This document shows, piece by piece, positions 41,737 to 58,615 of a stretch of 58,645 nt of DNA. The notes under the pieces were generated by a model. The model did no database searches. It had not been told where the DNA came from and worked only from the letters and a program-made list of their open reading frames with translations. Numbering within the stretch: position 1 is the stretch's first letter; each line of letters starts with the position of its first letter. The stretch covers positions 1-58,645 of the forward strand of contig JAJDZD010000047.1 in NCBI GenBank assembly GCA_022824865.1. Direction: 5' to 3'. This DNA comes from Chloroflexota bacterium (GTDB lineage: Bacteria > Chloroflexota > UBA11872). Made by a program: the position numbers and the translations under genes.

Positions 41737-43302
41737 CTAGTCCCAGAGCGCCTCCAGCGTCCAGGCCTTGAGCGATCGCACCGTGCTGGGCGCTCCCTGC
41801 GAACGCAGCGACACGCCCACGCTGTCCTCGCGCTCGGGATAGACGCGCACGGCCAGGGCCTGCCGCCCGTTCGCGAACACCTCCACCGCGCTTCGATCAA
41901 CGAAGACTCGCAGCCGCAGCGGTTCGTCGGGCCCGATCAGGACCTGAGCGTTCTCCGGCGCGCGCGACAACGCGTCAGGCGCCACCGACGAGTACGACGT
42001 GTCGATTGAGATCTGGCTCAAATGCGTCCAGAGCGGTCCGACGATTCCCTGGGTGAAATGGTTGGTGCGATAGCCGCGGTCGCGGTAGAAGGCCACGCGC
42101 GTGAACTCTTCCCGGTCTGGCGAACGCAAGACGTTCAGTTCGACCATCGGCGCGGACGAAGGCTCGACCTCCAACTCCAGCTCAAGCGAGTCGCCGGCCG
42201 TTCCGTCCAGCACTACCTCCTGGTTTGCCGGCAATTCCAGTGAACCCAGGTCTTGCTCGGACTGCCGCAGGGAGGTCAGGGTCTCGACCGGTTCCACAAA
42301 CACCACGTCGCCGTCGACCGTCAGACGTCGCGGCAGCGTCATGATCTGGTTCCAGCGCGGTGTGGGCTTGCCCGGGTTCATGTTGAAGATCACGATCAGG
42401 CCGCCCGAGCCGTCCGGCGTCGCTGACGGAGCGTGTAGGCCTGATGGCCCTGACGGCCCAAAGTTGTACTTCGCGCCATTCGTCACCACGAATTTGTCGC
42501 GCTCGGTGTCGTAGTCGCCCAGCAGGTATTGGCCGCCGCTCGTGTGGCTATAGAAGAGCAGCATGTGGCGATCGCCAATCGGCCAGAAGTACGGACAGGC
42601 GCCGTCGTCGCCAACCATGGAGTAGTGGTCGTCTTCGACGAAGGGGTGCAGGTACTCCCAGTGCTCCAGGTCCTCGGACCTGAAGAGGAAGTTGGCCCGG
42701 ATCGGCTTGCCGGCGGGGCCTTCCGGCTTGGTTCCTGCGGACAGCGAGTAGTAGACGCCGTCTTTCATCCAGATACACGGATCGAAAACCCGGTAGGGCG
42801 CGGGCGGACCATCGCGATCCGGCATCGGAATCACGGCCCGGTTGCCGACTTTCTCCCAGTTGAGAAGCAGCGGATCGCTGGACGTCGCCACCATGTTCCC
42901 GGCGCCGACCCCGTGATAGATGGCAATCACCCGGTCGTCCTCGACCAGGGTCGATCCCGAAAAGCACTTGTGCTCGGGGCTGGGATAAATGGCATAGGGC
43001 AGGTCGCGCCAGTGCACCAGGTCGTCGGACACCGCGTGACCCCAGTGCTGCCGGTCGTCCTCCGGCGGATAGGCCTGGTAGAAGAGGTGCCAGCGGCCCT
43101 GCCAGAAGCAGAGCCCATTGGGGTCGTTGAGGGTCGATTCAGGGTTGACGTAGTGATAGGCCGGACGGTGGCGCAAGCCGGCATATGACTCCCGCGACGC
43201 CAGCAGGCGCTGCATCAGCGGGTTCGATGCCAGCGCGGCTTCCTGCTCGGCCAACGTCGTTGGATAGGTGTACGCGGGAACGCGCGACTTGGGAGCGATC
43301 AC
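41737..43302 (-). CDS. Glycoside hydrolase family 32-like protein
   Basis: The 521 residues hold the GH32 five-bladed propeller and a C-terminal beta-sandwich (RLRVFVDRSAVEVFANGRQAL). The nucleophile motif is TLNDPNG, and the stabilising Asp lies in RVFDPC. The third motif, normally ECP around the acid/base Glu, reads GACPYF here, so that Glu is missing at the usual place. The GTG at 43302 has GGAGG just upstream, ending four bases before it. It lacks a signal peptide, so it probably acts inside the cell on an imported oligosaccharide; sucrose or fructan is the family default, but the motif change makes this doubtful. Confidence 0.85.
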   Translation of the reverse strand: MIAPKSRVPAYTYPTTLAEQEAALASNPLMQRLLASRESYAGLRHRPAYHYVNPESTLNDPNGLCFWQGRWHLFYQAYPPEDDRQHWGHAVSDDLVHWRDLPYAIYPSPEHKCFSGSTLVEDDRVIAIYHGVGAGNMVATSSDPLLLNWEKVGNRAVIPMPDRDGPPAPYRVFDPCIWMKDGVYYSLSAGTKPEGPAGKPIRANFLFRSEDLEHWEYLHPFVEDDHYSMVGDDGACPYFWPIGDRHMLLFYSHTSGGQYLLGDYDTERDKFVVTNGAKYNFGPSGPSGLHAPSATPDGSGGLIVIFNMNPGKPTPRWNQIMTLPRRLTVDGDVVFVEPVETLTSLRQSEQDLGSLELPANQEVVLDGTAGDSLELELEVEPSSAPMVELNVLRSPDREEFTRVAFYRDRGYRTNHFTQGIVGPLWTHLSQISIDTSYSSVAPDALSRAPENAQVLIGPDEPLRLRVFVDRSAVEVFANGRQALAVRVYPEREDSVGVSLRSQGAPSTVRSLKAWTLEALWD

Positions 43303-43419
43303 GATGCCTCCAGTCTCGGTGGAACCCGAGCTAACGCCAACGATTGGCCAAGAATCTAGACCGCGGCGCATCCGGCGACAAGCGCGGCGGCAATCCCGGC
43401 GCTGAGCGTATGTCGCGCG

Positions 43420-44565
43420 CTAGCGGCTGGGAGGCGCCACGACCTGGCCGTCACGCACCACGGCCGCGGCGGTCCAGATCCGGCCGGGGCGCTCGCTGCC
43501 GCTTACGTCGCGCAACGCCACCTCGTCCTTCGCCTCAGTCAGGACCACCAGATCGGCGCTCGCGCCTGGCGCCAGTGTGCCCACCTCTCCTGCCAGGCCC
43601 AGCAGTTCAGCGGGACGTGCCGTAATCCTCGGCCAGGCGTCCTCCTCGCGCATTCCCGCCGCCAGCAGCTTGGACACCGTCAGCGGAAGGTCGTGCTGTG
43701 GGTCGGACCCCACGTGCCGCCGGTACTGGTCCGTCGAGATCGTGTCGGGCAGAAAGCCCTCCTTGATCACCGTCTCCGCCACCTCGAAATCGAACGACCC
43801 CATCCCGTGCCCGGTGTCGAACAGCACGCCGCGTTCCCTGGCTCGCCAGACGCAATCCAGGACCCTGCCGTCCCGCGCGATGCGGTCGACCAGACCGTGC
43901 AAGCAGTAGGTCACGACATCGCCCGGGCGCAGTTGGTCCAACAACTCGTCAAGCGGGAAGTCGTCGGCGTGCCGCGTACCCACCAGCAACGGTCGATCCG
44001 TCGCCTCGCCGGCCTGGATCGCGCGGCGCAGCATCTCGCGCGGATCGGTATCCCCGCAGACGGCCTCGGCCACGTTGATCGCGATGCCCCAGATCAGGTC
44101 GCCTCCGTCGCGGATGGCGCTAACGCAGGCGTCCACGTCCGCCTCGGCAAGATCGCCCAGGCTGAAACCGGGATTGGACTCCCCCGAAGCCGACAGGTTG
44201 ATCGCCATCCGCACCCGCGTGCGAGCGCGCTCGATCAGCCGCTCGCGATAGCGCGGCCAGTTGCGCGCGCCGGCATCACCCTGCGACATGACGGTGGTGG
44301 CGCCGCGCGGTAGGAAGTGCACGTCCGGATCGATTCCGTACTTCGAGTCCTCGATGGCCGGATGCGCGTGCATGTCCACAAGCCCCGGCAACAACACGCC
44401 GTCCGGAAAGTCGAGCCGCCGCCCCGCCTCTGGAACTCTCCCCGCATCCGTTCCAATGGCTGTGCTCGCTATGCGATCGCCGTTCGTCGCCACATATCCG
44501 GGTCCGCGGAGGCCTCGAGCCGGATCTTCAATGCGACCGGCAGTGACCAGCAGATCGTATTTCAC
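43420..44565 (-). CDS. Amidohydrolase-superfamily protein (deacetylase/dihydroorotase-like)
   Basis: The 381 residues have the HxH metal motif LVDMHAHP, ATTVMSQGDAGA, GTRHADDFP, CLHGLVD, DTGHGMGSFDF and DTISTDQYRRH, and a closing beta-sandwich end LAPGASADLVVLTEAK. These features fit the metal-dependent amidohydrolase superfamily, D-aminoacylase or N-acetyl-sugar deacetylase branches. The gene is divergent from the ABC importer, with about 97 bases between, which suggests joint control with it. Confidence 0.82.
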   Translation of the reverse strand: MKYDLLVTAGRIEDPARGLRGPGYVATNGDRIASTAIGTDAGRVPEAGRRLDFPDGVLLPGLVDMHAHPAIEDSKYGIDPDVHFLPRGATTVMSQGDAGARNWPRYRERLIERARTRVRMAINLSASGESNPGFSLGDLAEADVDACVSAIRDGGDLIWGIAINVAEAVCGDTDPREMLRRAIQAGEATDRPLLVGTRHADDFPLDELLDQLRPGDVVTYCLHGLVDRIARDGRVLDCVWRARERGVLFDTGHGMGSFDFEVAETVIKEGFLPDTISTDQYRRHVGSDPQHDLPLTVSKLLAAGMREEDAWPRITARPAELLGLAGEVGTLAPGASADLVVLTEAKDEVALRDVSGSERPGRIWTAAAVVRDGQVVAPPSR

Positions 44566-44662
44566 GAGATTTACCGTTTCGGGTTAGGACGATTTCGGCG
44601 CTGCATGGTACTTTGGCTTGCGGCGCCGAGCCGATGCGGCGCACTTAAGGGAGGCTCACGGT

Positions 44663-46300
44663 ATGGGCATCAGTTCAAATATGACCCGACGCCGGATGCT
44701 GCGCATCGCCGGTGGTCTGGGTGTAAGCGCGGCTGGCGTCGCGGCCCTGGCGGCCTGCGGCGAGTCCGAGCCGCAGATCATCACCAAGGAAGTCCCGGTA
44801 GAGACGACGGTCATCAAGGAAGTTCCGGTCGAGAAGATCGTCCGTGAGACCGAAGTCAGAGAAGTCCCGGTCGAACGGATCGTTACGCAGGAGAAGATCG
44901 TTACCCAGCAAGTCGAGGTACCGGTTGAGCGCGTCGTGACGCAAGTCGTGGAGCGCGAAAAGGTCGTCGAGAAGGTCGTGACCAAGGAAGTCGAGGTCAT
45001 GGTCGAGGCGCCGATGCAGAAGGCGCCGGTTCGGCTGGAGTTCTCCACCGACTGGGGTTCCGGGGTTCGCGCGGCCACGCACAAGTTCATGGCCGAGCAG
45101 TACAACAAGGTCAACCCCCACGTCACCGTGGACATCCTCATCATCTCGGGTTCCGGCGGCAGCACCGCCGTTGGCTATTCCGGCATCCTGACGAACCTGC
45201 TGGTGGCGGGTTCTGGGCCGGAGCTAATGTCCGAGCTCTGGTGGAACGCTGACCTTTACAACCTGGACCTCGAGCCGCACATGCAGCGAGAGGGGTTGAC
45301 GAAGGACGACTTCTGGTGGCACGACGGCTACCTGGTCGACAAGGACGGGGTCACCCGTGGCGTGCCCTACGGCGTCTACGTGGGCGCCATGATGGCCAAC
45401 CTGAGCCTGGTCGAGCGGTTCGGCGTCACCATTCCCGACAAGGACTACTCGTTCGACGAACTGCGCGACCTGGCGGCCCAGATGCGCGACCCTGAGACCA
45501 ACGTTTGGGGTTTTGAGCGTCAGACCTACAGTTGGAACCAGGGCTTCGCCGAGCGCTTTGCCAGCGAGGGCGCCAAGTGGTACGACACGGCGACCGAGAC
45601 GTCCACCGCTTCGATCGCCACGCAGCCCGGCGGCAACTCCGTTGAGGCGTTCGCCGACTGGTGGAAGCTGGCCTGGGAAGACGGCGTGTCGCCAAACACC
45701 GACGAGGTACAGGCCACGCTGGAGTCGCCGGCCAATACGTCAGGCTCGAACAACCTGTTTGCCACAGGCCTGATCGGTATGTCCGGCTTCGGGTACAACT
45801 CGGGCGGGGGCATCAAGAACCGCATCGGCGGTCGCTTCGACTTCCACGTGTTCTGGCCCTACCAGTCGCCCTACTCGGGGCTCCGCGGTTACCACAACGA
45901 GACCAACAACATCGTGGTCAACCGGGCGGCCGAAGAGCGCGGCAACGCCGAGGAGGCCGCCGGGCTTGCCTTCTTCTGGCACGGCGACATCATGGCGCCG
46001 TACCTGGCCGAGTTCCAGCCCGTGGTTCCGGCCGTCAAGAACATCTGGAACAGCCCGTTCATTACCGAGTTCGCCAGCGGAACGGACAACTTCCCCGACC
46101 TGGCCGCTGAGGCCGAGGCCGTGGGCCAGTTCCGCGAGAACTGGGTCCGCGGCACCCACTCGCACCCGAACTGGTTGGAGTGGTTCCGTCTCTCCCGCGC
46201 CAAGTTGACCGACCGGGCGCTGGTTGGCGGCGAGAGCCCCTACCAGATGATGGAAGAGTTGGACGCCGAGGGAACCGAAGCTCTCCGGCGCGAGGTCTAG
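44663..46300 (+). CDS. Extracellular sugar-binding lipoprotein of an ABC importer
   Basis: The 545 residues begin with a twin-arginine-like signal (TRRRMLRIAGG) and a lipobox ending VAALAAC, with the Cys at about residue 32. A stalk of about 80 residues made of repeated K/E/V/P motifs (KEVPVE, VEKIV, VEVPVE) separates the lipid anchor from a type-1 extracellular solute-binding domain, with FWWHDGYLVD and GGNSVEAFADWWK typical of the carbohydrate family. Such stalks are common in Chloroflexota. AGGGAGG lies nine bases before the ATG. A stem-loop after the stop separates it from the permease genes. Confidence 0.9.
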   Translation: MGISSNMTRRRMLRIAGGLGVSAAGVAALAACGESEPQIITKEVPVETTVIKEVPVEKIVRETEVREVPVERIVTQEKIVTQQVEVPVERVVTQVVEREKVVEKVVTKEVEVMVEAPMQKAPVRLEFSTDWGSGVRAATHKFMAEQYNKVNPHVTVDILIISGSGGSTAVGYSGILTNLLVAGSGPELMSELWWNADLYNLDLEPHMQREGLTKDDFWWHDGYLVDKDGVTRGVPYGVYVGAMMANLSLVERFGVTIPDKDYSFDELRDLAAQMRDPETNVWGFERQTYSWNQGFAERFASEGAKWYDTATETSTASIATQPGGNSVEAFADWWKLAWEDGVSPNTDEVQATLESPANTSGSNNLFATGLIGMSGFGYNSGGGIKNRIGGRFDFHVFWPYQSPYSGLRGYHNETNNIVVNRAAEERGNAEEAAGLAFFWHGDIMAPYLAEFQPVVPAVKNIWNSPFITEFASGTDNFPDLAAEAEAVGQFRENWVRGTHSHPNWLEWFRLSRAKLTDRALVGGESPYQMMEELDAEGTEALRREV

Positions 46301-46316
46301 GCTTTCAGGATTTGTT

Positions 46317-46422: not shown

Positions 46423-47379
46423 GTGGCGTCGAGCAGCCTTAGCGCGAATACGACGGATCTGCGCGAGCCGCCTGCACCCCTGTCACGTTGGCGTGCCGCA
46501 CGCAAGTGGATTGCCGCCCAGGAAGGCTGGGTCTTCATCTTCCCCTGGGTCGTGGGATTCATCCTGCTCGACCTTGGCCCCTACATATTCGCGCTGATCA
46601 TCTCGTTCCTGAACTGGGATGTGGGTCGCCCGCCGACATACATCGGCCTGCGCAACTATCAGGCTGCCTTCACCGATCCGCTAGTCGGCAAGAGCCTCTG
46701 GAATACCGCCTACTACACCCTGTTCCACGTACCCGGGTCCACGATCATTGCGTTCGCGGTGGCCGGCCTGCTCAATCAGCGGGTCCGCGGCATGCCGATC
46801 TGGCGCACGATGTACTACATCCCCTCCGTCACGTCCGGCGTGGGCATGGCATTGATCTGGATCTGGCTGTTCGCACCGCGCGGAGCGCTCAACGGCATGC
46901 TCGGCTGGTTCGGAATCGAGGGGCCTCGCTGGCTGACCTCGACCACCTGGGCCATGCCGGCCCTCATCATCATGAGCTTCTGGGGCGTGGGTTCCTCGAT
47001 GGTGATTTTCCTCGCCGGCCTGCAGGGCGTACCCCAACACCTCTACGAGGCGGCCGAAGTAGATGGCGGCGGCTGGTGGGCCAAAGTCCGACATGTGACC
47101 ATTCCCATGATGACTCCCTACATATTCCTGAGCCTGATCCTTGGCGTGATTGGCTCCTTCCAGGTCGTGACCCAGGCGCTGCTCATGACCGAGGGCGGCC
47201 CGGACAACGCCACACTGTTCATCCTGCTCTACATCTGGATCATGGGCTGGAACGCCTTCAAGATGGGCTATGCCGCCTCGATCTCCTGGATCCTCTTCGC
47301 CATAATCTTTGCGGCCACAATCGTTCAGTTCCTGGGCGCCAGACGCTGGGTCTACTACGAATACCAGGAGCCGGGCTAG
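46423..47379 (+). CDS. ABC sugar transporter permease (MalF-like)
   Basis: The 318 residues hold about six membrane segments (FPWVVGFILLDLGPYIFALI, FAVAGLLNQ, ISWILFAIIFAATIV) and the EAA-type loop YEAAEVDGGGWWAKVRHVTIPMM that contacts the ATPase. IWIWLFAPRGALNG is typical of the carbohydrate CUT1 family. GGAGGTGAG lies eight bases before the GTG start. The second permease begins right at its stop. Confidence 0.92.
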   Translation: MASSSLSANTTDLREPPAPLSRWRAARKWIAAQEGWVFIFPWVVGFILLDLGPYIFALIISFLNWDVGRPPTYIGLRNYQAAFTDPLVGKSLWNTAYYTLFHVPGSTIIAFAVAGLLNQRVRGMPIWRTMYYIPSVTSGVGMALIWIWLFAPRGALNGMLGWFGIEGPRWLTSTTWAMPALIIMSFWGVGSSMVIFLAGLQGVPQHLYEAAEVDGGGWWAKVRHVTIPMMTPYIFLSLILGVIGSFQVVTQALLMTEGGPDNATLFILLYIWIMGWNAFKMGYAASISWILFAIIFAATIVQFLGARRWVYYEYQEPG

Positions 47380-48255
47380 ATGTCGGCGACAACGGCCGGA
47401 ATGGAGCGGCGACGGCCGATTGTGCTGCGCGCGTTTCGCTGGACCCGGCGAATCCTCCTCTACCTCATTGTGGTCGGCGGCTCGTTTGTCTACATGTACC
47501 CCGTCTTCTTCATGCTGCGAACCTCACTGACCAAGGAGTCCGACCTCTACGTCGTCCCGCCGATCATCGTTCCCCTGCCGCCGGTGTGGGAAAACTACGC
47601 CATCATGTGGCAGAACGGACCCACGTGGTCGTGGATCAAGAACTCCCTCATCGTGGTCTCGTTCAGCGTGGTCGCTGAGACGGTAACCAGCGTGTCAGTG
47701 GCTTATGGCTTCGCGCGCACCCGTTTCGCGGCGCGCGACAAGCTCTTTATCGGCGTGCTGGCCACGATGATGCTCCCGGGCGCCGTCACGCTGATCCCGC
47801 GCTGGCTGATCTTCCACCGCCTGGACATGATCGACACCTTGTGGCCATTGTTGATTCCGCGGCTCTTTGGAACCGCCTTCTACATTTTCATCATGCGGCA
47901 ATTCTTCCTCACGCTGCCGCGCGAGCTTGACGACGCGGCCCGCATCGACGGCGCGTCCCACCTCCAGATCCTGCGCAAGGTCGTCATCCCACTCTCGGTC
48001 CCCGCCATCGCAACCATTGCGGTCTTCTCGTTCATGAACCGCTGGAATGACTTCCTGGAGCCCCTGATCTACCTCCTGCGTACCGAGAATCTCACCCTTG
48101 CGGTAGGCCTGAGATTCTTCGTCTCCAGGTTCGGCACCGAATACCACCTGCTCATGGCTGGCGCCATGCTGCTCATCGTCCCCATGATCTTCGCCTTCTT
48201 CCTGGCCCAGAAGCAGTTCATCCGCGGCATCGCCCTAACCGGCATCAAGGGCTAA
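47380..48255 (+). CDS. ABC sugar transporter permease (MalG-like)
   Basis: The 291 residues show the second CUT1 permease: FVYMYPVFFMLRTSLT, VAYGFARTRFAAR, ELDDAARIDGASHLQILRKVVIPLSVPAIATIAVFSFMNRWNDFLEPLIYL with the EAA loop, and a final transmembrane part. The ATG follows the previous stop directly. No ATP-binding protein gene is in the window, so a shared ATPase (MsmK or MalK type) is presumed. Confidence 0.92.
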   Translation: MSATTAGMERRRPIVLRAFRWTRRILLYLIVVGGSFVYMYPVFFMLRTSLTKESDLYVVPPIIVPLPPVWENYAIMWQNGPTWSWIKNSLIVVSFSVVAETVTSVSVAYGFARTRFAARDKLFIGVLATMMLPGAVTLIPRWLIFHRLDMIDTLWPLLIPRLFGTAFYIFIMRQFFLTLPRELDDAARIDGASHLQILRKVVIPLSVPAIATIAVFSFMNRWNDFLEPLIYLLRTENLTLAVGLRFFVSRFGTEYHLLMAGAMLLIVPMIFAFFLAQKQFIRGIALTGIKG

Positions 48256-48376
48256 CGCACTCCCCCCTAACGCTCCTCGCTTCAGCAGACATCGTGAAGG
48301 GCGCGTGCTGGTCGCGCGGGACTTCCGGGCTGTCTATCCTGAGCATCGGCCAGTCTTCAGCGTCGAAGGACTCCAC

Positions 48377-49873
48377 ATGAGCGCCAACCCAGCCAGCACC
48401 GATGGCTTCCTCCTCCTGGACCGTGTGGAGTCTTGCCACAACGTCGTCCGGGCCGTCTGCAAGGCCGAAAAGCACCCGCTCAACCCCGTGCTCCCGCTCG
48501 GCGACATCCACGAGTGGGACTCCACCCACTGCGCCCCCTGGTCATCCCAGAGCGTCATCTACGACGAAGATGACAAGCTCTTCAAGGCCTGGTACGCCGG
48601 ATCCGACATGGGCGGCGCCAGTTGGTGGGCGACCGGCTATGCCATAAGTGAAGACGGCGTCAACTGGCACAAGCCGAACCTGGGGATGTTCGAGTACAAG
48701 GGCAGCAAGCAAAACAACATCGTCATTGAAGGCCGCGGCCCCATCATCAAGGACGATGCCGAGCCTGACCCCAACAAGCGCTACAAGGGCATCAAGCGCC
48801 TCCACAGCTACGTTGGCGAGCCTGCCTACAGCGAACACGGCGCGCGCGCCATCTTCTCCCCGGACGGCATCAACTGGACCACCGGCGAGCGAATCCTGCT
48901 TCCGCGCTGGGGTGGACGACCGCCAGACGTCGGCGTTCTGGTCCGTGACGATCAGGACCCCGATCCAAGCCGGCGTTTCAAATTCGTCTACCAGTGGATG
49001 GTCGACATTGACGAGCCCCACCAGAAGCAATTCGCCAAGCGAAACCCGTCTCAGGGTCGAGCCAAGTTCCTGGCCTACGGTCCCGACATCGAGAACTTCC
49101 GCGAAGCCGACGAAAACCCGCTGATTTCACCCAACGACGGCCTAGAGGAAGAAGACCACCACGTCATGATGGGCCCATACGGCGGCGCCTGGATCATGGC
49201 CTACGAGTACGGCTGGTACGTGCCCAGCGACTACGGGCTCTACGGCATGTATGGCGGAGACATTCGCCTGGCGGTCAGCGCCGACGGCGCCAACTTCGAG
49301 CGCGTCAACCCTCACCAGCCCACCATCCCCCGCGGCGCCCACACCGAGTGGGACGGCGGCCTGCTCGTCATCTCCGACAAGCCCGTCGTCAAGGACGGCA
49401 CCATTTACCTCTACTACGGCGGCGCCGCCGAGGACTTCACCACCTGGCCGCCCGAGAACTTCATTCCGGGCGTCGACTACGGCGGGTCCGGCAGCGGCTC
49501 CGGACGCGTCGTGCGCATGGGCCTTGCCACCCTCCGCGAGGACGGCTTCACCTGCCTCGAAACCCCCGACCGCGAAACCCCCGGCCACGCCACGACCACG
49601 CCTATTGATTCGGCCGGTCTCACGAACCTCTCAATCAACGTCGGCGACGTTCGTCAAAACCGCAGCTGGATCGAAGTCGAAGTCCTCGACCCCGACACCA
49701 ACCAGCCCCTCGAAGGCTTCACCCGCCGGGACTCCGACGACATCTTCATCGACGGCCTGCGCCGGCCCGTTGCATGGAACGGCAAGAACCTGTCCGACCT
49801 GCAATCCGGCAAGTTCAAGCTCCGCTTCTGGCTCTACGGCGCCGCCCGCCTCTATGCCTACGGGTTGTCGTAG
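48377..49873 (+). CDS. Beta-propeller glycosidase-like protein, family not identified (copy A)
   Basis: The 498 residues have propeller-like blades with repeated WY and DG.NW elements: FKAWYAGSDMGGASWWATGYAISEDGVNWHKP, NNIVIEGRG, ARAIFSPDGINWTTGE, RLAVSADGANFERV and IYLYYGGAAEDF. A beta-sandwich-like tail ends WNGKNLSDLQSGKFKLRFWLYGAARLYAYG. The layout resembles GH32/43-type enzymes but I see no NDPNG or other named catalytic motif. No signal peptide is evident. AAGGA lies upstream of the ATG. The gene follows the two permeases and precedes the sialidase-like gene. Function is inferred from context only. Confidence 0.7.
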   Translation: MSANPASTDGFLLLDRVESCHNVVRAVCKAEKHPLNPVLPLGDIHEWDSTHCAPWSSQSVIYDEDDKLFKAWYAGSDMGGASWWATGYAISEDGVNWHKPNLGMFEYKGSKQNNIVIEGRGPIIKDDAEPDPNKRYKGIKRLHSYVGEPAYSEHGARAIFSPDGINWTTGERILLPRWGGRPPDVGVLVRDDQDPDPSRRFKFVYQWMVDIDEPHQKQFAKRNPSQGRAKFLAYGPDIENFREADENPLISPNDGLEEEDHHVMMGPYGGAWIMAYEYGWYVPSDYGLYGMYGGDIRLAVSADGANFERVNPHQPTIPRGAHTEWDGGLLVISDKPVVKDGTIYLYYGGAAEDFTTWPPENFIPGVDYGGSGSGSGRVVRMGLATLREDGFTCLETPDRETPGHATTTPIDSAGLTNLSINVGDVRQNRSWIEVEVLDPDTNQPLEGFTRRDSDDIFIDGLRRPVAWNGKNLSDLQSGKFKLRFWLYGAARLYAYGLS

Positions 49874-49906: not shown

Positions 49907-51190
49907 ATGAGTCAGCGCTACGCGCCGCAACGCCTGGCGGAGACAATCAACCTGCAGGACCGGCAGGTCGATCTGGCCGCACCGCCGGGCGAACTGGTCG
50001 TTCGCGAACACCTCGGCCTCATCACTGCCCCATCCGTCGACGGCCACGTCGTCTACCGCACCGAGCGCGGCACCCTCTTCGAAACCCGGGCCACGAAGAC
50101 GCCCGGCGGCGACTACCTCCTGATGTTCCCCGCCAACACCCTCACCGTCCCCGAAGGCCGCTGCCACTATGGTCGCCAGGAACGCAAGGCCAACGATCTG
50201 GTGGCCTTCCGTTCAAGTGATCGGGGAGAGACCTGGCACGGGCCGACGCGGCCCATCGACATCGACTACAACCTCCACGGCTTCATCCCGCTTATGCCTC
50301 GCGCCGGCAGCGGTGTCCCCGAAGGCCGCATCTACTGCTTCGGCACCCAGCCGATCTGGGCCCTCCACACGACCAGGCGCGGCCTGCACGAAAACGCGCC
50401 AATCGGCTTCCGCTACTCCAACGACGACGGCCACACTTGGTCCGAGGTACGGCTGATTCAGCCAACCAACGATCCCGGCTTCACCGGCATGTCCGTCATG
50501 CGCATGTGCGAAACCGAGGCCGGAACCTGGCTGCTCGGCGCCCACGAAGCCGATTGGTCCTACCGCCCGCTCATGACCCGCCAGTACATCCTCCGCTCCG
50601 AAGACCAGGGCCAGTCCTGGGAGCTGCTGCCCCACGCCCGTCACGGCGGCTGGCACGCCGGCGGCTTCAACCGCATGGACGAGCTGCGCCCAATCGACTT
50701 GGGCGGCGGCGAGATTTACGCCATGGCCCGAACCCCCGAAGGCCACCTCTGGAACCTCCGCAGCCACGACGACGGCCGCACCTGGTCAGACCCTCAACCT
50801 ACCCCGCTGGTACATCCCGACGCCCCGCCCATGCTCTTCAAGCTCTCCAACGGCGACCTCGCGGCCTTCCACCACAACCGCCACCACGACCTCGACTACA
50901 CCGGCCTCAGCGGCGACAAGGAATCCCTGATGGGCGACCGCTCCGAAATCTGGGTCGCCGTCTCCTCCGATGGTGGACGCACCTGGGGCCGGCCCCGCTT
51001 CGTCTTCGCCAACGCCCTCGCCCCCGTCTACGACATCCCATTCATGAACCACCAGTGCTCCTACATCGATGCCTTCGTCGACGACGGCGTCCTCAACCTC
51101 TTCGTCCCCCACCGCTGGCACCAGGCCCTGCACCTGCGCCTTCCCGAAGCATCCCTGGCCGGGTTACAGACTGCCGCCGAAATATTCTGA
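49907..51190 (+). CDS. Sialidase-superfamily (BNR/Asp-box) protein
   Basis: The 427 residues hold at least five Asp-box repeats, S-x-D-x-G-x-x-W: SSDRGETW, SNDDGHTW, SEDQGQSW, SHDDGRTW and SSDGGRTW. These mark the six-bladed sialidase fold. True sialidases also need an Arg triad and a Tyr/Glu pair, which cannot be confirmed by eye; many family members have other substrates. No signal peptide is seen. It begins 33 bases after copy A of the propeller genes. Confidence 0.82.
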   Translation: MSQRYAPQRLAETINLQDRQVDLAAPPGELVVREHLGLITAPSVDGHVVYRTERGTLFETRATKTPGGDYLLMFPANTLTVPEGRCHYGRQERKANDLVAFRSSDRGETWHGPTRPIDIDYNLHGFIPLMPRAGSGVPEGRIYCFGTQPIWALHTTRRGLHENAPIGFRYSNDDGHTWSEVRLIQPTNDPGFTGMSVMRMCETEAGTWLLGAHEADWSYRPLMTRQYILRSEDQGQSWELLPHARHGGWHAGGFNRMDELRPIDLGGGEIYAMARTPEGHLWNLRSHDDGRTWSDPQPTPLVHPDAPPMLFKLSNGDLAAFHHNRHHDLDYTGLSGDKESLMGDRSEIWVAVSSDGGRTWGRPRFVFANALAPVYDIPFMNHQCSYIDAFVDDGVLNLFVPHRWHQALHLRLPEASLAGLQTAAEIF

Positions 51191-51341: not shown

Positions 51342-52298
51342 CTAATACCCCCGCTCGAGATCGCAGACATACGCCAGCGGCCGCCCCTCGACAAAGCGAC
51401 AGACCTGGTCCTCAAGCGTTTGCCGCCGTTGCTTCCACATGCTCGGTGTAACCCCCGAGCAGTGCGGCGAGATCAGCACGTTGTCCATGTCCCACAGCGG
51501 ACTCTCGGCGGGCAGCGGCTCCGTTTTCGTCGCATCCAGCCCGGCCCCCGACAGGCGACCCGAACACAATCCCTCCGCCAGCGCGTCCTCGTCCACGATC
51601 CCGCCGCGCGATATCACGATCACCGCGGCGCCCTGTTTCAGCAGCCCGATCCGTCGGGCGTCGATCATGTTCCGCGTGCCCGGGGTTATGGGAACGGTCA
51701 CGACCAGCCAGTCGGTCTCGGCCAGCAGTTCATCCAGCCGCTCAACACCGCCAATCTCGCGAATGCCCGCCGGCACGTCCGTGGGCGTCGGATCGATCGC
51801 CGACACCTGCATCCCAAAGCTCTGCGCCCGCTGAAACACGGCGCGCCCAATGCCGCCCAGTCCAATCAGCAGCATGGAAGAGCCGTCAAGGTCGCGCAGC
51901 TGGCGCTCGTACGACCCGGTGTCCCAACGCCGAGCCCGCTGATCGTCCATCAGCCGGTGACCCTGGTGCGCCAGCGACAGCACGAAGAACATCACGTGGT
52001 CCGCGATCGGACTCGTGTGCGCCCCCGGCGAATTCGTCACCACGATCCCGGACTCGGCAATACCCGGGCTGAGCATCGTGTTGTTGATCCCCATCCCCGG
52101 CACGTGAATCCAGCGCAGCCGCTGCGCCGCGGCTATCGCTTCGGGCTCCGGCCAGCCCAGGAACGCATCGGCATCCACGATCTCGCGCACCTCGTCCGGA
52201 TCGGTAAGAGCCATGGAGAAGGTGGCCTCGGGAAAGCGCGCCTCCAGCCGCTCCGCGTAGTCCTCGCCGAACTGACCGGTTCCAATCACAATCTTCAT
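51342..52298 (-). CDS. D-2-hydroxyacid dehydrogenase
   Basis: The 318 residues show the NAD-binding motif LIGLGGIGRAV, and active-site elements VVISRGGIVDEDAL (Arg) and SPHCSGVTP (His), with VTVPITPGTRNMI between. The family oxidises D-2-hydroxyacids or reduces 2-oxoacids (glycerate, phosphoglycerate, lactate types). In this locus it could handle a sugar-acid breakdown product (inference). It is the only non-hydrolase among the minus-strand genes of the block and follows copy B of the propeller genes on the same strand. Confidence 0.9.
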   Translation of the reverse strand: MKIVIGTGQFGEDYAERLEARFPEATFSMALTDPDEVREIVDADAFLGWPEPEAIAAAQRLRWIHVPGMGINNTMLSPGIAESGIVVTNSPGAHTSPIADHVMFFVLSLAHQGHRLMDDQRARRWDTGSYERQLRDLDGSSMLLIGLGGIGRAVFQRAQSFGMQVSAIDPTPTDVPAGIREIGGVERLDELLAETDWLVVTVPITPGTRNMIDARRIGLLKQGAAVIVISRGGIVDEDALAEGLCSGRLSGAGLDATKTEPLPAESPLWDMDNVLISPHCSGVTPSMWKQRRQTLEDQVCRFVEGRPLAYVCDLERGY

Positions 52299-52376: not shown

Positions 52377-53954
52377 CTAGCTCGCGACCTCGAAGCCGTA
52401 CAGCGTCGCCTTCCGCAGCTTGAACTGAAGAACCACCGGTCCATGCCTCGAAAGCGGCAACGCTTTGCTCCCGTTCCAGTCCACCGGCACACTCAGGTGA
52501 TCGCCCTGGATCGACCGGCTCTGGCCCACCTCGACCCAGGCGCCATGACCAGGACGCGACGTCCACCCCGGCCCGCGCTCCAGCGCCGTAACCCGGACCT
52601 CGCCGTCGGCAGCCGTCTTCACGTTCAGCCGTACCTCACGCCCCTGCAGCTGCAACTGTGGCGTCGCGAACTCCCCATGCCCCTCCGCAACCAGCCCCGC
52701 AATCCTCCCGCGCTCCCATGTGGCATACGCCGTTGCGCTCTGCAGATTCTGTCGCGGGTACTTGTGCGGCAGGTCATTCCCCCCATACGGCGTGCCAATC
52801 CGGTCGCCCGCCAGCTCGACCAGGCCCTTGCAGGAAAACAGGCAGCCCGAGTCGAACGTCCCCTCCGGCCCCGGCTCCAGCACAGGTCCGCCAGGCACCC
52901 AATTCCACACCACGTCGTCCGAACTGGTCGCAACCGCCAGCGACGTAGTGTCCAGCGCCCGGTCGTACAGCGTCGGAAACATGATGTGCGTGGACGGATC
53001 GCCCGGATACGTCACCTTGCCGTTGGTATAGATGTCCGTGAATGCCAGGTCGTCCGGCGGCGTGGTCAACACCTGCTCCGGCAGCGGCCATTCGTAGAAG
53101 TCGCGTGTCTCGGCCCGCGCAATCGTCCGCCGGTCCCACGACCATCCCCGCGAATACCATACGTAGCTCTGCCGCTCCGCGTTCCAATCCACCACGTTCA
53201 TGGTGTCGCTGATGAAGATCACGACGGGCTCCGGATGCGCGGTCCATTTGATCCCGTCCGGCGACGTAGCTACGAAGAACCCGCGATCGGGATGCACCGC
53301 AATCCACGGGTCCACCCGCTCCGGATGCTCCCGCGCCCAATGAGTAATGACGTCCTTCGAGAGTCGGCCCATGTAAATCGCCTTGAACCGCTCATGCGCC
53401 GGCGCCTGAGGATCCAGGAATACCGACTCTCCATGGATTCCCGGCTCGCCCGCCAGTTCTCGGCCAAACACGATGTTCGTGGCCTCCTGCCCCTGCCACG
53501 CGTACTGACCGCAATCCGGCTTGCGCCACTCGACCCCGTCGTCGGATTCCGCGTAACACACGAATCCGCCCCAGTCGGGACCCCACTTCAGCGTCGCCGC
53601 GATCTCGGGATCCCAGTGGTCCGGCGCGATCGCGTGGTACCACATGCGGTACAGCCCGCCGTCGCGAATGATCGCCGGCCCGCCGTTGTTGTACTCCCAC
53701 GGCTCGGTACAGGTCAGAATCGGATCCGACCGTTCGGCCGGCTGCGTCCGCAACTCGATGCCGCGCGGAACATTCGCGTGCTCGGCGCGAATCTCATCCG
53801 GGTCCGCCGTCTCCCAGTAGTGAATCGGCGTGCCGTCCGCCCCAACCCACCGCGGTTGTCCGGCGCTGACGAACCGGTAGTCCATGATCGGGTGATACCC
53901 GGCGGCAACGTCGAACGGCGGAACCCGCCCCGGCAGCAACTCAGCCATCACCAT
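52377..53954 (-). CDS. Beta-propeller glycosidase-like protein, family not identified (copy B)
   Basis: The 525 residues parallel copy A: a start PPFDVAAGYHPIMDYRF, blades with YRMWYHAIAPDHWDPE, VCYAESDDGVEWRKPDCGQYAWQGQEATNIVFG, GFFVATSPDGIKWTAHPE, IFISDTMNVVDWN, and DTTSLAVATSSDDVVWNW, with the end KALPLSRHGPVVLQFKLRKATLYGFEV. The DG.xW elements and closing LxFKLxxAxLYxF match copy A. ATG at 53954; two further Met codons follow within three residues. No signal peptide is seen. Context suggests glycan hydrolysis in the cell. Confidence 0.7.
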   Translation of the reverse strand: MVMAELLPGRVPPFDVAAGYHPIMDYRFVSAGQPRWVGADGTPIHYWETADPDEIRAEHANVPRGIELRTQPAERSDPILTCTEPWEYNNGGPAIIRDGGLYRMWYHAIAPDHWDPEIAATLKWGPDWGGFVCYAESDDGVEWRKPDCGQYAWQGQEATNIVFGRELAGEPGIHGESVFLDPQAPAHERFKAIYMGRLSKDVITHWAREHPERVDPWIAVHPDRGFFVATSPDGIKWTAHPEPVVIFISDTMNVVDWNAERQSYVWYSRGWSWDRRTIARAETRDFYEWPLPEQVLTTPPDDLAFTDIYTNGKVTYPGDPSTHIMFPTLYDRALDTTSLAVATSSDDVVWNWVPGGPVLEPGPEGTFDSGCLFSCKGLVELAGDRIGTPYGGNDLPHKYPRQNLQSATAYATWERGRIAGLVAEGHGEFATPQLQLQGREVRLNVKTAADGEVRVTALERGPGWTSRPGHGAWVEVGQSRSIQGDHLSVPVDWNGSKALPLSRHGPVVLQFKLRKATLYGFEVAS

Positions 53955-54127
53955 CGCCCCTGTAGCGAACCCCGGCCGCGTCGCTGACTATATGCCCAAT
54001 TCGCCGCACCGGTCAGCCAGGCCACTCCCAACGGTAATGTCGATCCGGACTCTGAGATGTCCGCACGCGACCTCCAACCACTCGTGCGCCATAATCAAGC
54101 CGCGTCTGCTGCAACAGGTCCCGCGCC

Positions 54128-55564
54128 TTGGCTGATCGCCGCCCGCACGTCATTTTCATCACGACGGATCAGCAGCGCGGCGACGCCCTCAGCATCAACG
54201 GCGCGGATCCCCTGGCCACCCCCAACCTCGACTTCCTGGCCGCCAGCGGGACCAACTTCACCCGCGCCTACGCCGAAGTCCCGTCCTGCATCGGCGCCCG
54301 CCGCACCATGCTGTCCGGCATGCGGCCCTTCAACCACGGCATGGTCGGCTTCTACGGCGGCGTCGGCTGGGCGCTCGACCACTCGCTGCCGGCTGAACTC
54401 TCCAGGGCCGGCTACCAGACCCAACTGGTCGGCAAGCTCCACATGTACCCCCGGCGCAAGCGCTACGGCTTCGACAACATGGTCTGGGCCGACAGCCAAC
54501 GCGACAACAACGATTACGCCGAGTGGCTGGCCGACAACGGCGCCACGTCGCTGGAGATGGGCCTCGCCCACGGCGTCTCCACCAACGGCTGGGTGGGACG
54601 CCCGAGCCATCTCGACGAACGCTTCTCCCACACCACCTGGTGCGTCAACGAGGCCCTCCGCTTCATCGGCCAGCGCGACCCCGACGCCCCGTTCTTCCTC
54701 TGGGTCTCCTTCGTCGATCCACACCCGCCCCTCACTCCACCTCTCGTCTACTGGGAACGCTACGAGTCGATAGACCTTCCCGAGCCCTACGTCGGCGACT
54801 GGGCGCCCCGGCTGGATACGCCGCCGCCCGGCCTCAACCCCGACGCCTCCGTCATGCGCCTCCGCGAAGACGATCTCCACCGCTGCCGCGCCGGCTACTA
54901 CGGCCTCGTCAACCACGTCGATGATCAGGTCTCGCGCCTGCTCAAGGGCTTCCGCGAAAGCGGCCTGCTGGACGACGCCTTCGTGCTCTTCACCAGCGAC
55001 CACGGCGAAATGCTTGGCGATCACAACCTCTTCCGAAAGACTTGGCCCTACGAGGCCTCCATCCGCGTCCCGTTCCTGGCCCGCGCTCCCGAGTGGATGG
55101 ACTGCACCGCCGAACGCACCATCGAACGCCCCGTCGGCCTGCAGGACGTCATGCCGACCATCCTCGACGCGGCCGGCGTCCCGATCCCCGAGTCTGTCGA
55201 CGGAGCCAGCGTCCTCCCCTTCATGCGCGGCGATTCACCCGCGTGGCGCGACTACCTCCACGGCGAGCACACCGCCTGCTACGAGCCCGACCAGGGCAAC
55301 CAGTGGGTCACCGACGGCCGCGAAAAACTGATCTGGTACACCCAGACCGGCGAGGAACAGTTCTTCGATCTCGACGCCGATCCACTCGAAATGCACAACG
55401 CCCTCAACGACGCCAGCGAACGCGTTGACAAGTGGCGTCGGCGCCTCATCGACGAACTGGCCGCTCGCCCCGAAGGCTTCGTCAGCGACGGCCGCCTGGT
55501 CGCCGGGCAGCACGAACTCCGCCCGGAACAGCTACAACCCGCAACCAACCAGGTGAGCGCCTGA
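54128..55564 (+). CDS. Sulfatase-family protein with non-standard FGly motif (CIGAR)
   Basis: The 478 residues begin RPHVIFITTDQQRGDALSI with the metal-binding Asp pair. The active-site Cys at about residue 53 lies in PSCIGARRTMLSG; the usual pattern is C-x-P/A-x-R, so the third position is Gly. Further signatures are GKLHMYPRR, HPPLTPP, FTSDHGEMLGDH and HGEH. Type I sulfatases remove sulfate esters after conversion of the Cys to formylglycine. Start TTG at 54128 is the best available. It is paralogous to the next gene, which starts five bases after its stop. Confidence 0.85.
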   Translation: MADRRPHVIFITTDQQRGDALSINGADPLATPNLDFLAASGTNFTRAYAEVPSCIGARRTMLSGMRPFNHGMVGFYGGVGWALDHSLPAELSRAGYQTQLVGKLHMYPRRKRYGFDNMVWADSQRDNNDYAEWLADNGATSLEMGLAHGVSTNGWVGRPSHLDERFSHTTWCVNEALRFIGQRDPDAPFFLWVSFVDPHPPLTPPLVYWERYESIDLPEPYVGDWAPRLDTPPPGLNPDASVMRLREDDLHRCRAGYYGLVNHVDDQVSRLLKGFRESGLLDDAFVLFTSDHGEMLGDHNLFRKTWPYEASIRVPFLARAPEWMDCTAERTIERPVGLQDVMPTILDAAGVPIPESVDGASVLPFMRGDSPAWRDYLHGEHTACYEPDQGNQWVTDGREKLIWYTQTGEEQFFDLDADPLEMHNALNDASERVDKWRRRLIDELAARPEGFVSDGRLVAGQHELRPEQLQPATNQVSA

Positions 55565-55569
55565 TCCCC

Positions 55570-57072
55570 ATGCCCCGCCGCCGCCCGCACATCCTCCTGA
55601 TCACCTCGGATCAGCAACGCGCCGACGCGCTCGGCATTGACGGCCATCCCGTCCTGCGAACCCCAAACCTCGACTACCTGGCCGGCAACGGCGCCTGGTT
55701 CCGCTCGGCCTTCAGCGAGTCGCCAACCTGCATCCCCGCGCGCCGCGTCATCCTCTCCGGCCAGGCCCCCGTCACCAACGGCATGGTCGGCTTCTACGGC
55801 GGCTACCACTGGAACCTCCGCCACTCCATCGCCTCCACCCTTGCGGACGCCGGCTATCAGACCGAGCTCATTGGCAAGACCCACTGGCACCCGGACCGCA
55901 AGCGCTTCGGCTTTCAGCACATGCTCGTCGCCAACAGCCAGCGTGACGGCAACGACTACGCCGACTGGCTCAACGCCCAGGGCCGCCGCGAAGTCTTGGC
56001 CGGCAAGTTGCACGGCGTCGAGACCAACTCCTTCAACGCCCGCCCCAGCCACCTGCCCGAGGGTTACGACCTCACCACCTGGTGCGTCAACGAGTCCCTC
56101 AAGCTCATCCAAAAGCGCGATCCCGAGGCCCCGCTCTTCTTGTGGGTCTCAGTGGTCGATCCGCACCCGCCCTTCACCCCGCCCAAGCTGTACTTCGACC
56201 GCTACATGGCCCGCGCCGACGACATCCCCGAGCCCTTCATCGGCGACTGGGCCAGGCAGTTCGACCAACCCAACCTCGGCCTCAACATCCAACCCGTCGA
56301 TATCAACCTGCCCGACGCCTGGATGCGCCGCATGCGTGCCGCCTACTACGGGCTCGTCAATCACATCGACGACCAGGTCAACCGCGTCTTTCGCGCGCTT
56401 TCCGCCGCCGGCATGTGGCGGGACACCGTCGTGCTCTACACCAGCGACCACGGCGAGATGCTGGGTGACCACAACCTCTTCCGCAAAGCCTGGGCGCACC
56501 AACCTTCCGCCAACATCCCCTTCATCCTGCGGCTCCCCGAATGGCTCGAACCGCAACACGGCGCCGTGATCGATCAGCCGGTCGGCCTCCAGGACGTCAT
56601 GCCAACCCTGCTGGACGCGGCGGACGTCCCGATCCCAGACTCAGTCGACGGCCGCAGCGTCCTCCCGCTCGCTCGCGGCGACCAAACGTCCTGGCGCCCC
56701 TTCCTCCACGGCGAGCACCATGGCGGCCGACGCGGCCGCAGCAGCGCACGCTGGGCGGAATACGCGCCGGCCCATCAGTACCTGACCGATGGCCGCGAAA
56801 AATACATCTGGTACCCCGCGGACGGCCGCGAGCAATTCTTCGACCTGGCACGCGACCCGCACGAGCTCCACAACGCGGCAGACGACCCCGCCGCCGCATC
56901 CCGCGTGGCCCTCTGGCGCCGGCGCATGCTGGACCAGCTACGCAACCGCCCGGAGGGGTTCGTGGACGGCCAACGCCTTGTCGCGGGACGTCCGCAACTC
57001 TTGCCCGACCAGATCCGCCCCGACATCAATCGCCGGGGCAAATCGTGGTCGCTCTCCGTAGCCGTCCCCTAG
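55570..57072 (+). CDS. Type I sulfatase
   Basis: The 500 residues begin RPHILLITSDQQRADALGIDG and carry the canonical formylglycine motif CIPAR at about residue 54 (PTCIPARRVILSG), with GKTHWHPDRKR, DPHPPFTPP, YTSDHGEMLGDHNLF and HGEHHGG. It aligns over its length with the preceding sulfatase. The natural substrate is not clear; sulfated sugars are favoured by the locus. No signal peptide is seen, so it may act on imported material. The ATG lies five bases past the stop of the first sulfatase; no clear ribosome site. Confidence 0.9.
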   Translation: MPRRRPHILLITSDQQRADALGIDGHPVLRTPNLDYLAGNGAWFRSAFSESPTCIPARRVILSGQAPVTNGMVGFYGGYHWNLRHSIASTLADAGYQTELIGKTHWHPDRKRFGFQHMLVANSQRDGNDYADWLNAQGRREVLAGKLHGVETNSFNARPSHLPEGYDLTTWCVNESLKLIQKRDPEAPLFLWVSVVDPHPPFTPPKLYFDRYMARADDIPEPFIGDWARQFDQPNLGLNIQPVDINLPDAWMRRMRAAYYGLVNHIDDQVNRVFRALSAAGMWRDTVVLYTSDHGEMLGDHNLFRKAWAHQPSANIPFILRLPEWLEPQHGAVIDQPVGLQDVMPTLLDAADVPIPDSVDGRSVLPLARGDQTSWRPFLHGEHHGGRRGRSSARWAEYAPAHQYLTDGREKYIWYPADGREQFFDLARDPHELHNAADDPAAASRVALWRRRMLDQLRNRPEGFVDGQRLVAGRPQLLPDQIRPDINRRGKSWSLSVAVP

Positions 57073-57166
57073 CGCCAGTGCATCGGCGCGATTTCAGCCC
57101 CACGCTCACCGCGCGGTATCGTCAGTGCAACCCGGTGCCTTGTGCGCCACGCAGGGAGTTTCCGCC

Positions 57167-58615
57167 ATGCTGAATTCCGGCGATTTCACACTCCTCTTCT
57201 GGGACGACAACTACCTGAGTCGCTGGAACAACTGCCGGCGGGGAATCGGCCAGCCGCAGCTTGTCCCGGAGGCCACGCTCGAAGAGCCCGGATTCTGGCT
57301 CGGCTCCGGCTACCCCACCGCCTTCAAGCACGAATCGGGCGTCTGGCGAATCCTCTACAACGGCAAGTCCGTCGTCCCCGAGGAACAGCCCGATAGCTAC
57401 GCCCTCGTAGCCGAGAGCGACGACGGCATCCACTGGGAGAAGCCCGACCTCACCGACCGCGTTCCCCTTCCCGACCGCCGCTACCCCAACCAAGTGCTGA
57501 GGAAGTCCGAGGACTTCCACCAGTGGGACTGCTACTTCGACGAGCGAGCCGAAGACCCGAACGAGCGCGTCAAGGGCTTTGCGGTCGGCAAGGGCAACCA
57601 CCTCTGGACGTCGCCCGAGGGCCTGAACTGGACGCGCGTTGAAGGCGTCGAATGGCGCAAGCACAGCCCCGACCCGCCCAGCACCGCCTACTGGAACCAC
57701 GTGCGCGACTGCTACGTCATCAGCGCCCGCCCGGCGCCTCACGCGCACCCGCGGCGGGTGGCCCTGTCCGAAACGAAGGACTTCCGCACCTACAGCGAGC
57801 CTGAACTGGTGCTCGCCACCGACGCCCTCGACACCCCATTGGCCGAAATCTACGGCATGGTCGCCTTCCCGTACGCCGACAAGTTTGTCGGCCTGGTCTG
57901 GATCTATCACACCGATCCCGTTCCCCTGGTGAAGTACTGGGGAGGCAAGACCGACTGCCAGTTGGCCTACAGCTACAACGGCTGGCACTTCAACCGCTCC
58001 ATCCGGGAGCCCTTCATCCCCAACGCCGAACAGGGCGAATACGGCGCGGGAACCATGCGCCCGCACAGCCTCGTCGTCGACGACGACAACCAGATCCGCA
58101 TCTACTCCAGTGCGTCCAAGCTCGAGCACGGCTACCACATCAACCCCCATATCGGACCCAAACGACTCGAACGCGGACCGGCTGGCGAGGGCAATGACAC
58201 CGGCGCCCTGCTCATGCACAAGCTGCGGTTGGACGGCTTCTATTACGTCGAGTCCTGCTTCGGTCCGGGCATGATCGGCACCCGCTCCCTCTATTGGCAG
58301 GGCGGCGAAGCCAGGTTCAACATCCAGTCCGGTCTTGAGACCCGAGTCCAGGTCACCGACCCGACCGGCGAGGTGATCGAGGGCTACAGCTACGACCACT
58401 GCCAGCCGTTTACCGGCGACGCGCTCGACTGGACGCCCCGCTGGAGCGGCGGTCGCGGCCTTGCGTCCTTCACCGGCCAGGCGATTCGCCTCGAGGTCGA
58501 AATGAACAACGCCCGCATCTACGCCATTCGCGGCGACTTCCTCCCGCTATCCGGCAGAGAGCTGAGGACCTTCATGGATCGGGGCGAGAAGCCCATCCCG
58601 CGCCCCGGCTTCTAG
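57167..58615 (+). CDS. Beta-propeller glycosidase-like protein, family not identified (copy C)
   Basis: The 482 residues belong with copies A and B: WRILYNGKSVVPEEQPDSYALVAESDDGIHWEKPDL, LWTSPEGLNWTRVEG, LAEIYGMVAFPYADKFVGLVWIYHTDP, CQLAYSYNGWHFNRSIREPFIPN, and ARIYAIRGDFLPL. It is shorter and more divergent than the other two. AGGGAG lies ten bases before the ATG chosen at 57167; an earlier ATG or GTG is possible but residues before it look unlike a protein start. It ends 30 bases before the window edge. Substrate unknown. Confidence 0.7.
   Translation: MLNSGDFTLLFWDDNYLSRWNNCRRGIGQPQLVPEATLEEPGFWLGSGYPTAFKHESGVWRILYNGKSVVPEEQPDSYALVAESDDGIHWEKPDLTDRVPLPDRRYPNQVLRKSEDFHQWDCYFDERAEDPNERVKGFAVGKGNHLWTSPEGLNWTRVEGVEWRKHSPDPPSTAYWNHVRDCYVISARPAPHAHPRRVALSETKDFRTYSEPELVLATDALDTPLAEIYGMVAFPYADKFVGLVWIYHTDPVPLVKYWGGKTDCQLAYSYNGWHFNRSIREPFIPNAEQGEYGAGTMRPHSLVVDDDNQIRIYSSASKLEHGYHINPHIGPKRLERGPAGEGNDTGALLMHKLRLDGFYYVESCFGPGMIGTRSLYWQGGEARFNIQSGLETRVQVTDPTGEVIEGYSYDHCQPFTGDALDWTPRWSGGRGLASFTGQAIRLEVEMNNARIYAIRGDFLPLSGRELRTFMDRGEKPIPRPGF

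Follow-up and report, generated by a model that had tools for sequence, protein, structure and literature searches.

The stretch of DNA analysed here (the window) comprises positions 1 to 58,645 of contig JAJDZD010000047.1 (assembly GCA_022824865.1) of a Chloroflexota bacterium. Toward its end lies a gene block with an ATP-binding cassette (ABC) importer, two sulfatases and three large proteins, hereafter A, B and C. We assign these three, at a rough probability of 0.55, to one large cytoplasmic family of carbohydrate-active enzymes—most likely glycosidases or other breakers of glycosidic bonds—placed in a locus of import and desulfation. An initial annotation, made from the sequence alone, had named the importer, a glycoside hydrolase (GH) 32-like protein, an Asp-box protein, two sulfatases, a dehydrogenase and three related propeller proteins. 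All of these are present (Table 1), and Pfam backs the GH32N and GH32C domains, BNR_2, the sulfatases and the BPD_transp_1 permeases. The binding protein has zero matches in Pfam or NCBIfam; hence, it is so called for its sequence and location. The amidohydrolase gene, unnamed in that annotation, is also part of the conserved block.

The starts given earlier for A and C are backed by ATG codons at 48377 and 57167, preceded by GAAGGA and GGGAG, respectively, and are most likely preferable to the longest open reading frame (ORF) starts at 48305 and 57125. Some orthologous ORFs open at or near the chosen starts, others elsewhere. Five whole loci of Chloroflexi metagenome-assembled genomes (MAGs; L043, L044, L046, L049 and L054) keep the block together, with gene-by-gene identities of 86–99%; in two of them (L049 and L054), a BNR orthologue was not detected. 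RHO and COS in MAG titles are presumably sponge codes, and the host might be a sponge symbiont.

Table 1. Genes of the conserved block, with positions in the window
Feature	Position	Strand	Remarks
Short-chain dehydrogenase	40938..41717	+	Edge of the conserved block
GH32-like protein	41737..43371	-	Pfam GH32N and GH32C above cut-off; neither the acid/base Glu of ECP nor the Arg of RDP is present
Amidohydrolase-superfamily protein	43420..44565	-	PF01979 above cut-off; closest model PRK09237, below its cut-off
Presumed ABC substrate-binding protein	44618..46300	+	Hydrophobic N-terminus
ABC permease 1	46423..47379	+	BPD_transp_1
ABC permease 2	47380..48255	+	BPD_transp_1
Propeller A	48377..49873	+	Five-bladed propeller and all-beta C-terminal domain (model)
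BNR/Asp-box propeller protein	49907..51190	+	BNR_2
D-2-hydroxyacid dehydrogenase	51342..52298	-	Pfam/NCBIfam
Propeller B	52377..53954	-	Same family as A and C by homology
Sulfatase 1	54128..55564	+	PF00884; PRK13759 arylsulfatase model above cut-off; motif CIGAR
Sulfatase 2	55570..57072	+	PF00884; PRK13759 above cut-off; motif CIPAR; ORF opens at 55432, likely start ATG 55570
Propeller C	57167..58615	+	Same family; modelled as five-bladed propeller

The relatedness of A, B and C, claimed from the outset, is borne out. Their pairwise identity is 20–23% over the alignment, single-comparison BLASTP gives E values of 6e-9, 3e-8 and 1e-8 for the three pairs, and profile iteration joins them; as judged from these comparisons, the three are homologous beyond chance. 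The iterated profile search, seeded with A, B and C, covered 648 ORFs from the window and from 17 stretches of its own genome picked for having matches. It ended with 31 ORFs: 26 paralogues—A, B and C among them—three broken or short pieces, the GH32 protein of the window and one small GH-like ORF. The 26 paralogues span 439–717 amino acids, the shortest being truncated by a contig end, so that 23 further near-full-length copies stand beside A, B and C in a genome of 3.52 Mb. Two further copies in this genome look broken: one (L031:7911-9442) is divided over two frames, and another (L032:6979-7938) is short with an in-frame stop within the matched stretch.

The DG..W blade motif that had been noticed in the three proteins is real and reaches throughout the family. 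SxDGxx[WF] occurs in 150/150 family sequences versus 14/27 GH130, 0/15 GH32 and 0/12 GH43 sequences, and the longer SxDGxx[WF]x[KR]P in 142/150 versus 1/27, 0/15 and 0/12. The 150-sequence set retains near-identical orthologues; hence, counts over it are not independent. The fetched loci gave 149 family matches, of which 127 had 380–620 residues and more than 100 bits, and 42 were left after an 85% identity cut; alignment A3 holds 39 of those 42 relatives together with A, B and C. The GH130, GH32 and GH43 samples stem from Chloroflexota only (27/30, 15/30 and 12/30 fetched loci, respectively). One GH32 pick, L154, is a probable wrong ORF; it was excluded from the half-split hidden Markov models (HMMs) and the tree described below and included in the hhalign comparisons and in the KDP and motif counts.

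The family is large, widespread and poorly annotated. Within the window's genus, 13 genomes carry 9–34 matches to the propeller profile each, the window's own genome having 29, and six genomes of the sister genus carry 6–7. An even sample of the phylum yielded a match at E 1e-20 in 28 of 301 genomes, 18 of these 28 belonging to the window's taxonomic family. Twenty further genomes, reached through family loci titled Latescibacterota, Gemmatimonadota, Verrucomicrobia or Opitutales, Planctomycetota, Zixiibacteriota, Acidobacteria or other Chloroflexota, have 1–51 matches each; these were chosen for having a match and, thus, say nothing of frequency. The highest copy numbers were found in a Planctomycetota MAG (51), a Phycisphaeraceae MAG (36) and an Opitutaceae MAG (35), and the three Verrucomicrobia-type genomes have 18, 27 and 35. 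Relatives of A in Latescibacterota and Gemmatimonadota MAGs (L050, L051, L065 and L089) share 66–68% identity with it over the best segment. Since this exceeds the 58% of its nearest own-genome paralogue, the sequences suggest a transfer between phyla.

A and C were modelled with AlphaFold2 from alignments of the window proteins and fetched relatives; the model of A has a predicted local distance difference test score (pLDDT) of 86.6 and a predicted template modelling score (pTM) of 0.88, that of C 81.2 and 0.86. The DSSP string of A outlines five blades at about residues 75–419, followed by an all-beta part at about 427–521, which in the model is probably a sandwich as in GH32; GH32 enzymes combine a propeller with a beta-rich C-terminal domain. 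Foldseek agrees with the predicted five-bladed propeller for both proteins: nearly all of the best 50 rows per model are five-bladed carbohydrate enzymes, among them GH130, GH32, BT_0996, GH159, GH43, GH117 and the Flavonifractor plautii GalNAc deacetylase (FpGalNAcDeAc)—some of these family labels being our assumption. All of these are remote, with template modelling (TM) scores by query of 0.26–0.44. Hence, the predicted models of A and C, taken with Foldseek, place them by fold in the superfamily of five-bladed propeller carbohydrate enzymes, and B would share this fold by its homology.

The earlier statement that the three proteins fit no named family stands for Pfam and NCBIfam, where neither A, B nor C matches any family above cut-off, so that there is no confident match of all three to one characterised family there. 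A has no Pfam match and a single NCBIfam match, to the GH130 model at 12.7 bits versus a cut-off of 450; B has zero Pfam matches, and the sole Pfam match of C is a sub-threshold one to a BT_1020-like propeller (E 0.013). The Pfam scan of the 26 paralogues gave one Stork_head and one BT_1020 propeller match (E 0.012–0.013), and none of them matches GH32N at E 0.1. One of the 42 relatives matches GH32N (E 0.0077), and 17 match the NCBIfam GH130 model, with a best E of 3.4e-5 for a model whose cut-off is 450 bits. Among plasmid records searched for annotated homologues, none was found for A; B and one of the relatives, L108, match a single record, annotated as a hypothetical protein.

Profile comparisons put GH130 and a GalNAc deacetylase nearest among solved structures, although both are remote. 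The 26-row paralogue profile, searched against solved structures, finds GH130 at E 2.1e-14, GH32 at 1.3e-4 and 5mui at 6.5e-4; the 42-row profile finds FpGalNAcDeAc (6n1a) at 1e-13, GH130 at 1.9e-13 and GH117 (4ak7) at 0.001. As a control, a 12-row GH130 profile sets GH130 structures (5.9e-44 or better) well apart from other families (1.3e-4 or worse). By hhalign, the family pairs with GH130 at E 1.8e-10, with GH32 at 3.5e-6 and with GH43 at 0.0053; for comparison, GH32 pairs with GH43 at 2.7e-8 and GH130 with GH32 at 2.9e-6. With fewer rows, the values are 1.5e-8 for the family with GH130 and 3.1e-4 for GH32 with GH43.

Membership in GH32, GH43 or GH130 is nevertheless ruled out by Pfam cut-offs, half-split HMMs, motifs and the tree. 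Scores with the half-split HMMs are 215–577 bits for family members and do not exceed 50 for GH130, 19 for GH32 and 11 for GH43. In a FastTree of 118 rows, a single branch with a local support of 99 separates all 65 family rows from the rest, which is support and not proof, since the program warns of long branches. The [ED]DPR motif, which we take to hold the GH130 catalytic Asp on blade II, is found in 0/150 family sequences versus 18/27 of GH130; the NDPNG-type motif in 0/150 versus 10/15 of GH32; and FRD[PH] in 0/150 versus 4/15 of GH32. A loose E[CA]P pattern (7/150 in the family, 7/27 in GH130) is uninformative. Likewise, A, B and C have no Pfam match to GH43, and the propellers of the window's own genome are not among its two GH43 matches.

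Compared with known systems, the family shares with GH130—mannoside phosphorylases and beta-1,2-mannosidases—the five-bladed propeller, the best profile match of the paralogue set among solved structures and a TM score of 0.70 by target length, but bears an extra C-terminal domain and lacks [ED]DPR. Hereby, hhalign and HMMER set the blades in different registers, so that residue equivalence to GH130 is uncertain. With GH32 (clan GH-J), which is among the Foldseek rows, it shares the two-domain architecture, but not the catalytic motifs. The blades of FpGalNAcDeAc (6n1a, 6n1b) align to the family with the 42-row profile, however partially, and the family does not carry a conserved set of two His. 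BT_0996 (5mui, 5mt2), which we take to be GH137-type, and GH159 (7zei) are five-bladed propellers among the top folds, but with TM scores by query of at most 0.44. Solved members of GH117, GH137 and GH159 gave no strong profile match: 4ak7 and 5mui stayed at the E values given above, and 7zei was found by fold only.

Several polar residues are nearly invariant. D208 of A, at the mouth of blade III and equivalent to D250 of B and D183 of C, is Asp or Glu in 148 of the 150 sequences; R159 is Arg in 147, and R252 in all 142 with a letter at that column. D278 is acidic in 137/150 and the residue after W71, D/E72, in 140/150, with a gap in C. E283 and D350 vary more: the former is acidic in 113/150 and Gln in 20, the latter acidic in 118/150 and Gly in C. 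D208, D278 and D/E72 are jointly acidic in 128/150, and D208, E283 and D350 in 92/150. With blades assigned from DSSP strings and the alignment, the acids of the family appear to sit on blades III–V instead of I–III. The initial annotation had envisaged a clade outside the GH families with a conserved acidic triad; the clade is there, set apart from the GH130, GH32 and GH43 samples, but a strict triad does not emerge from these counts. A strict triad by homology with GH32 is ruled out as well, the GH32 motifs being absent.

In addition, exactly one of columns 285 and 378 (residue numbers of A) holds a His in 147/150 family members, and never both. These columns split the family into an A-type, with His285 and mostly Trp or Phe at 378, and a B-/C-type, with Tyr285 and His378. 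As read from the alignment, this alternation could reflect either a single deep split or the swapping of a working His.

The location of the proteins can be approached by a crude hydropathy scan. None of the 26 propellers shows a hydrophobic N-terminus (15-residue hydropathy at most 1.32), whereas the binding protein reaches 1.82 and the permeases 2.23 and 2.33. The two sulfatases, at 0.45 and 0.24, have no signal-like N-terminus either. Hence, propellers and sulfatases should act on small imported molecules.

The proposal of a sulfated substrate fits this locus, but not the family as a rule. In this locus and its orthologues, propellers and sulfatases are clearly linked. The genome yields 31 sulfatase matches overall and also carries a strong gene of the formylglycine-generating enzyme (FGE) family (E 2.8e-86). 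Sulfatases occur in 31 of 51 Chloroflexota family loci, many of these orthologous, and in only 2 of 22 fetched family loci outside Chloroflexota, a set that includes L061 (titled Alphaproteobacteria; no sulfatase); the sulfatase profile was built from the two of the window and their relatives, and distant sulfatases may escape it. Within the own genome and excluding the window, a sulfatase lies within 6 kb of 6 of 25 propeller positions versus 1.8 expected (157 of 5000 shuffles as high). Including the window, which itself prompted the question, the numbers are 9 of 28 versus 2.1 expected (9 of 5000 shuffles as high). A family-wide sulfatase link is thereby rejected outside Chloroflexota, as far as that profile reaches, and within the own genome it is only weak once the window is set aside. 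Outside Chloroflexota, the neighbours include GH2, GH3, GH4, BNR and enolase-type genes (25 of 99 families listed), from a scan that took in 102 of 123 candidate ORFs. Since sulfatases are mostly absent and neighbours varied there, the family, taken as a whole, shows no tie to sulfated glycans. Sulfatase 1 carries CIGAR instead of CxPxR at the formylglycine site, and this is kept in 6/6 orthologues.

In the mechanism that we infer—from catalysis and the role of each acid to the order of steps and the substrate—the ABC importer would take up a small oligosaccharide or glycoside, from which the two sulfatases without signal peptides would remove sulfate inside the cell. In the central pocket of the propeller, A, B and C might then attack one linkage or sugar apiece, different for each, with catalysis probably proceeding via the near-invariant blade-III Asp and acids at the mouth of blade IV, and the dehydrogenase and amidohydrolase would process the products. 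Glycosidase is the likeliest activity as judged from sequence comparison, with deacetylase as a serious rival. For this reading speak the five-bladed enzyme folds, the GH130 profile matches, the near-invariant polar residues, the conserved block, the FGE-family gene and a five-bladed protein, possibly related, whose beta-galactosidase activity has been measured (PMC5342196). Several points weigh on the other side. E283 and D350 are not universal and, hence, no full acidic triad emerges; the catalytic motifs of GH32 and GH130 are absent from the 150 family sequences; with the 42-row profile, a deacetylase (6n1a) comes first among solved structures; the activity of the members is a prediction from sequence; and the neighbours outside Chloroflexota are mixed, comprising also SBP_bac_5 importers, MlrC/M81, Gfo/Idh/MocA, hydroxyacid dehydrogenase and CN-hydrolase genes (among the same 25 of 99 families listed).

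That beta-galactosidase, Lac161_ORF10 (AGW45555), bears on whether the family has been described before. According to its description (PMC5342196), it has a mass of 63.7 kDa, was obtained from a soil cosmid whose assigned source is Chthoniobacter (Verrucomicrobia) and hydrolyses lactose with a Km of 3.2 mM and a kcat of 8.6 per s. It is reported there to show no significant CDD domain, to be modelled as a five-bladed propeller and to carry KDP at residues 196–198, and its authors put it in Pfam DUF377 (PF04041, GH130), with top BLAST homologues mainly from Bacteroides. A 2024 paper (PMC11087588), in its available part, credits GH165 to this study (three enzymes) and leaves the founding enzyme unnamed. 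The family might coincide with, or include, a CAZy family that already bears a name (possibly GH165) and has Lac161_ORF10 as its founder, with A, B and C as divergent members of a beta-galactosidase-type family—possible, but on balance doubtful. The traits described for Lac161_ORF10, including its origin, fit the family, which is abundant in the three Verrucomicrobia-type genomes. KDP stands at the column of A D150, taken to match the KDP of Lac161_ORF10, in 17/150 members (xDP in 67/150), and KDP followed by R[YF]K 4–10 residues on occurs in 14/150 members versus 0/27 GH130, 0/15 GH32 and 0/12 GH43. However, the likeness is by description and the KDP motif, not by full sequence; the scanned family members match no DUF377 in Pfam; and Bacteroides is absent from the 73 family loci. 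PF14100, a neighbour of Lac161_ORF10, is not visibly linked to the family: as a common neighbour it is not supported, with 1 of 23 matches by eye within 10 kb of the members listed.

By this analogy, Lac161_ORF10 is a plausible relative of the family, which would gain a tested activity if membership is true. The initial suggestion of a glycosidase family not yet described is partly supported: Pfam and NCBIfam provide no name, but the undescribed status is doubtful, since Lac161_ORF10 (PMC5342196) may be a tested member. With this possible case set apart, searches of the open-licence PMC literature turned up no recognisable description of the propeller family. Only tentatively, then, and with the odds somewhat against it, can the family be called one not listed in CAZy—with acids on blades III–V instead of I–III, a His at one of two pocket positions, and dozens of specialised paralogues within single genomes of Chloroflexota, Planctomycetota and Verrucomicrobia, a main part of whose sugar catabolism would then escape annotation with common models.

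Some or all members might instead be carbohydrate deacetylases or other metal-dependent enzymes on a propeller scaffold, like FpGalNAcDeAc. The E value of 6n1a with the 42-row profile and the presence of 6n1b among the Foldseek rows of both models point this way, as do the single His at columns 285/378, an HxxD on blade II of C and the column aligned to the His of W-H-Q-D in 6n1a, which is His in 74/150 and Tyr in 73/150. Against this, 6n1a is absent from the result of the 26-paralogue profile at E up to 10. Under our assumed assignment of its metal ligands, the blade-II His is found in only 25/150 family members, and two of the three examined His columns are filled in 25/150 only; this alternative is less probable than the glycosidase reading. 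A non-catalytic role for the propellers, as sugar-binding or regulatory proteins derived from a glycosidase scaffold, is more improbable still: high copy number, the variable E283 and D350 and a GH32-like neighbour that also lacks canonical catalytic residues would suit it, but the near-invariance of D208, R159 and R252 argues otherwise.

If the members are glycosidases of different specificity, their copy number could explain the use of diverse small glycans by uncultured bacteria from several phyla; the family also lends itself readily to activity screens. Pfam finds two GH32N, one GH130 and two GH43 matches in the own genome, the GH130 and GH43 ones on their own lying below 27 bits. None of these is one of the 26 propellers, versus 29 matches with the propeller profile; hence, surveys using Pfam GH32N, GH130 or GH43 miss the family.

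Two neighbours of the propellers deserve mention. The GH32-like protein keeps NDPNG, but carries FDP instead of RDP and GACP instead of ECP, and the same kind of change recurs in five other GH32 proteins compared (L156, L157, L162, L164 and L165). Hence, as judged from these motifs, its acid/base may be a different one, or its activity may differ. In an Opitutales MAG, a 2-hydroxyacid dehydrogenase (L079:5308-6297) is found close to a propeller gene, and in the own genome another propeller has nearby a relative of the dehydrogenase of the window (L025:8013).

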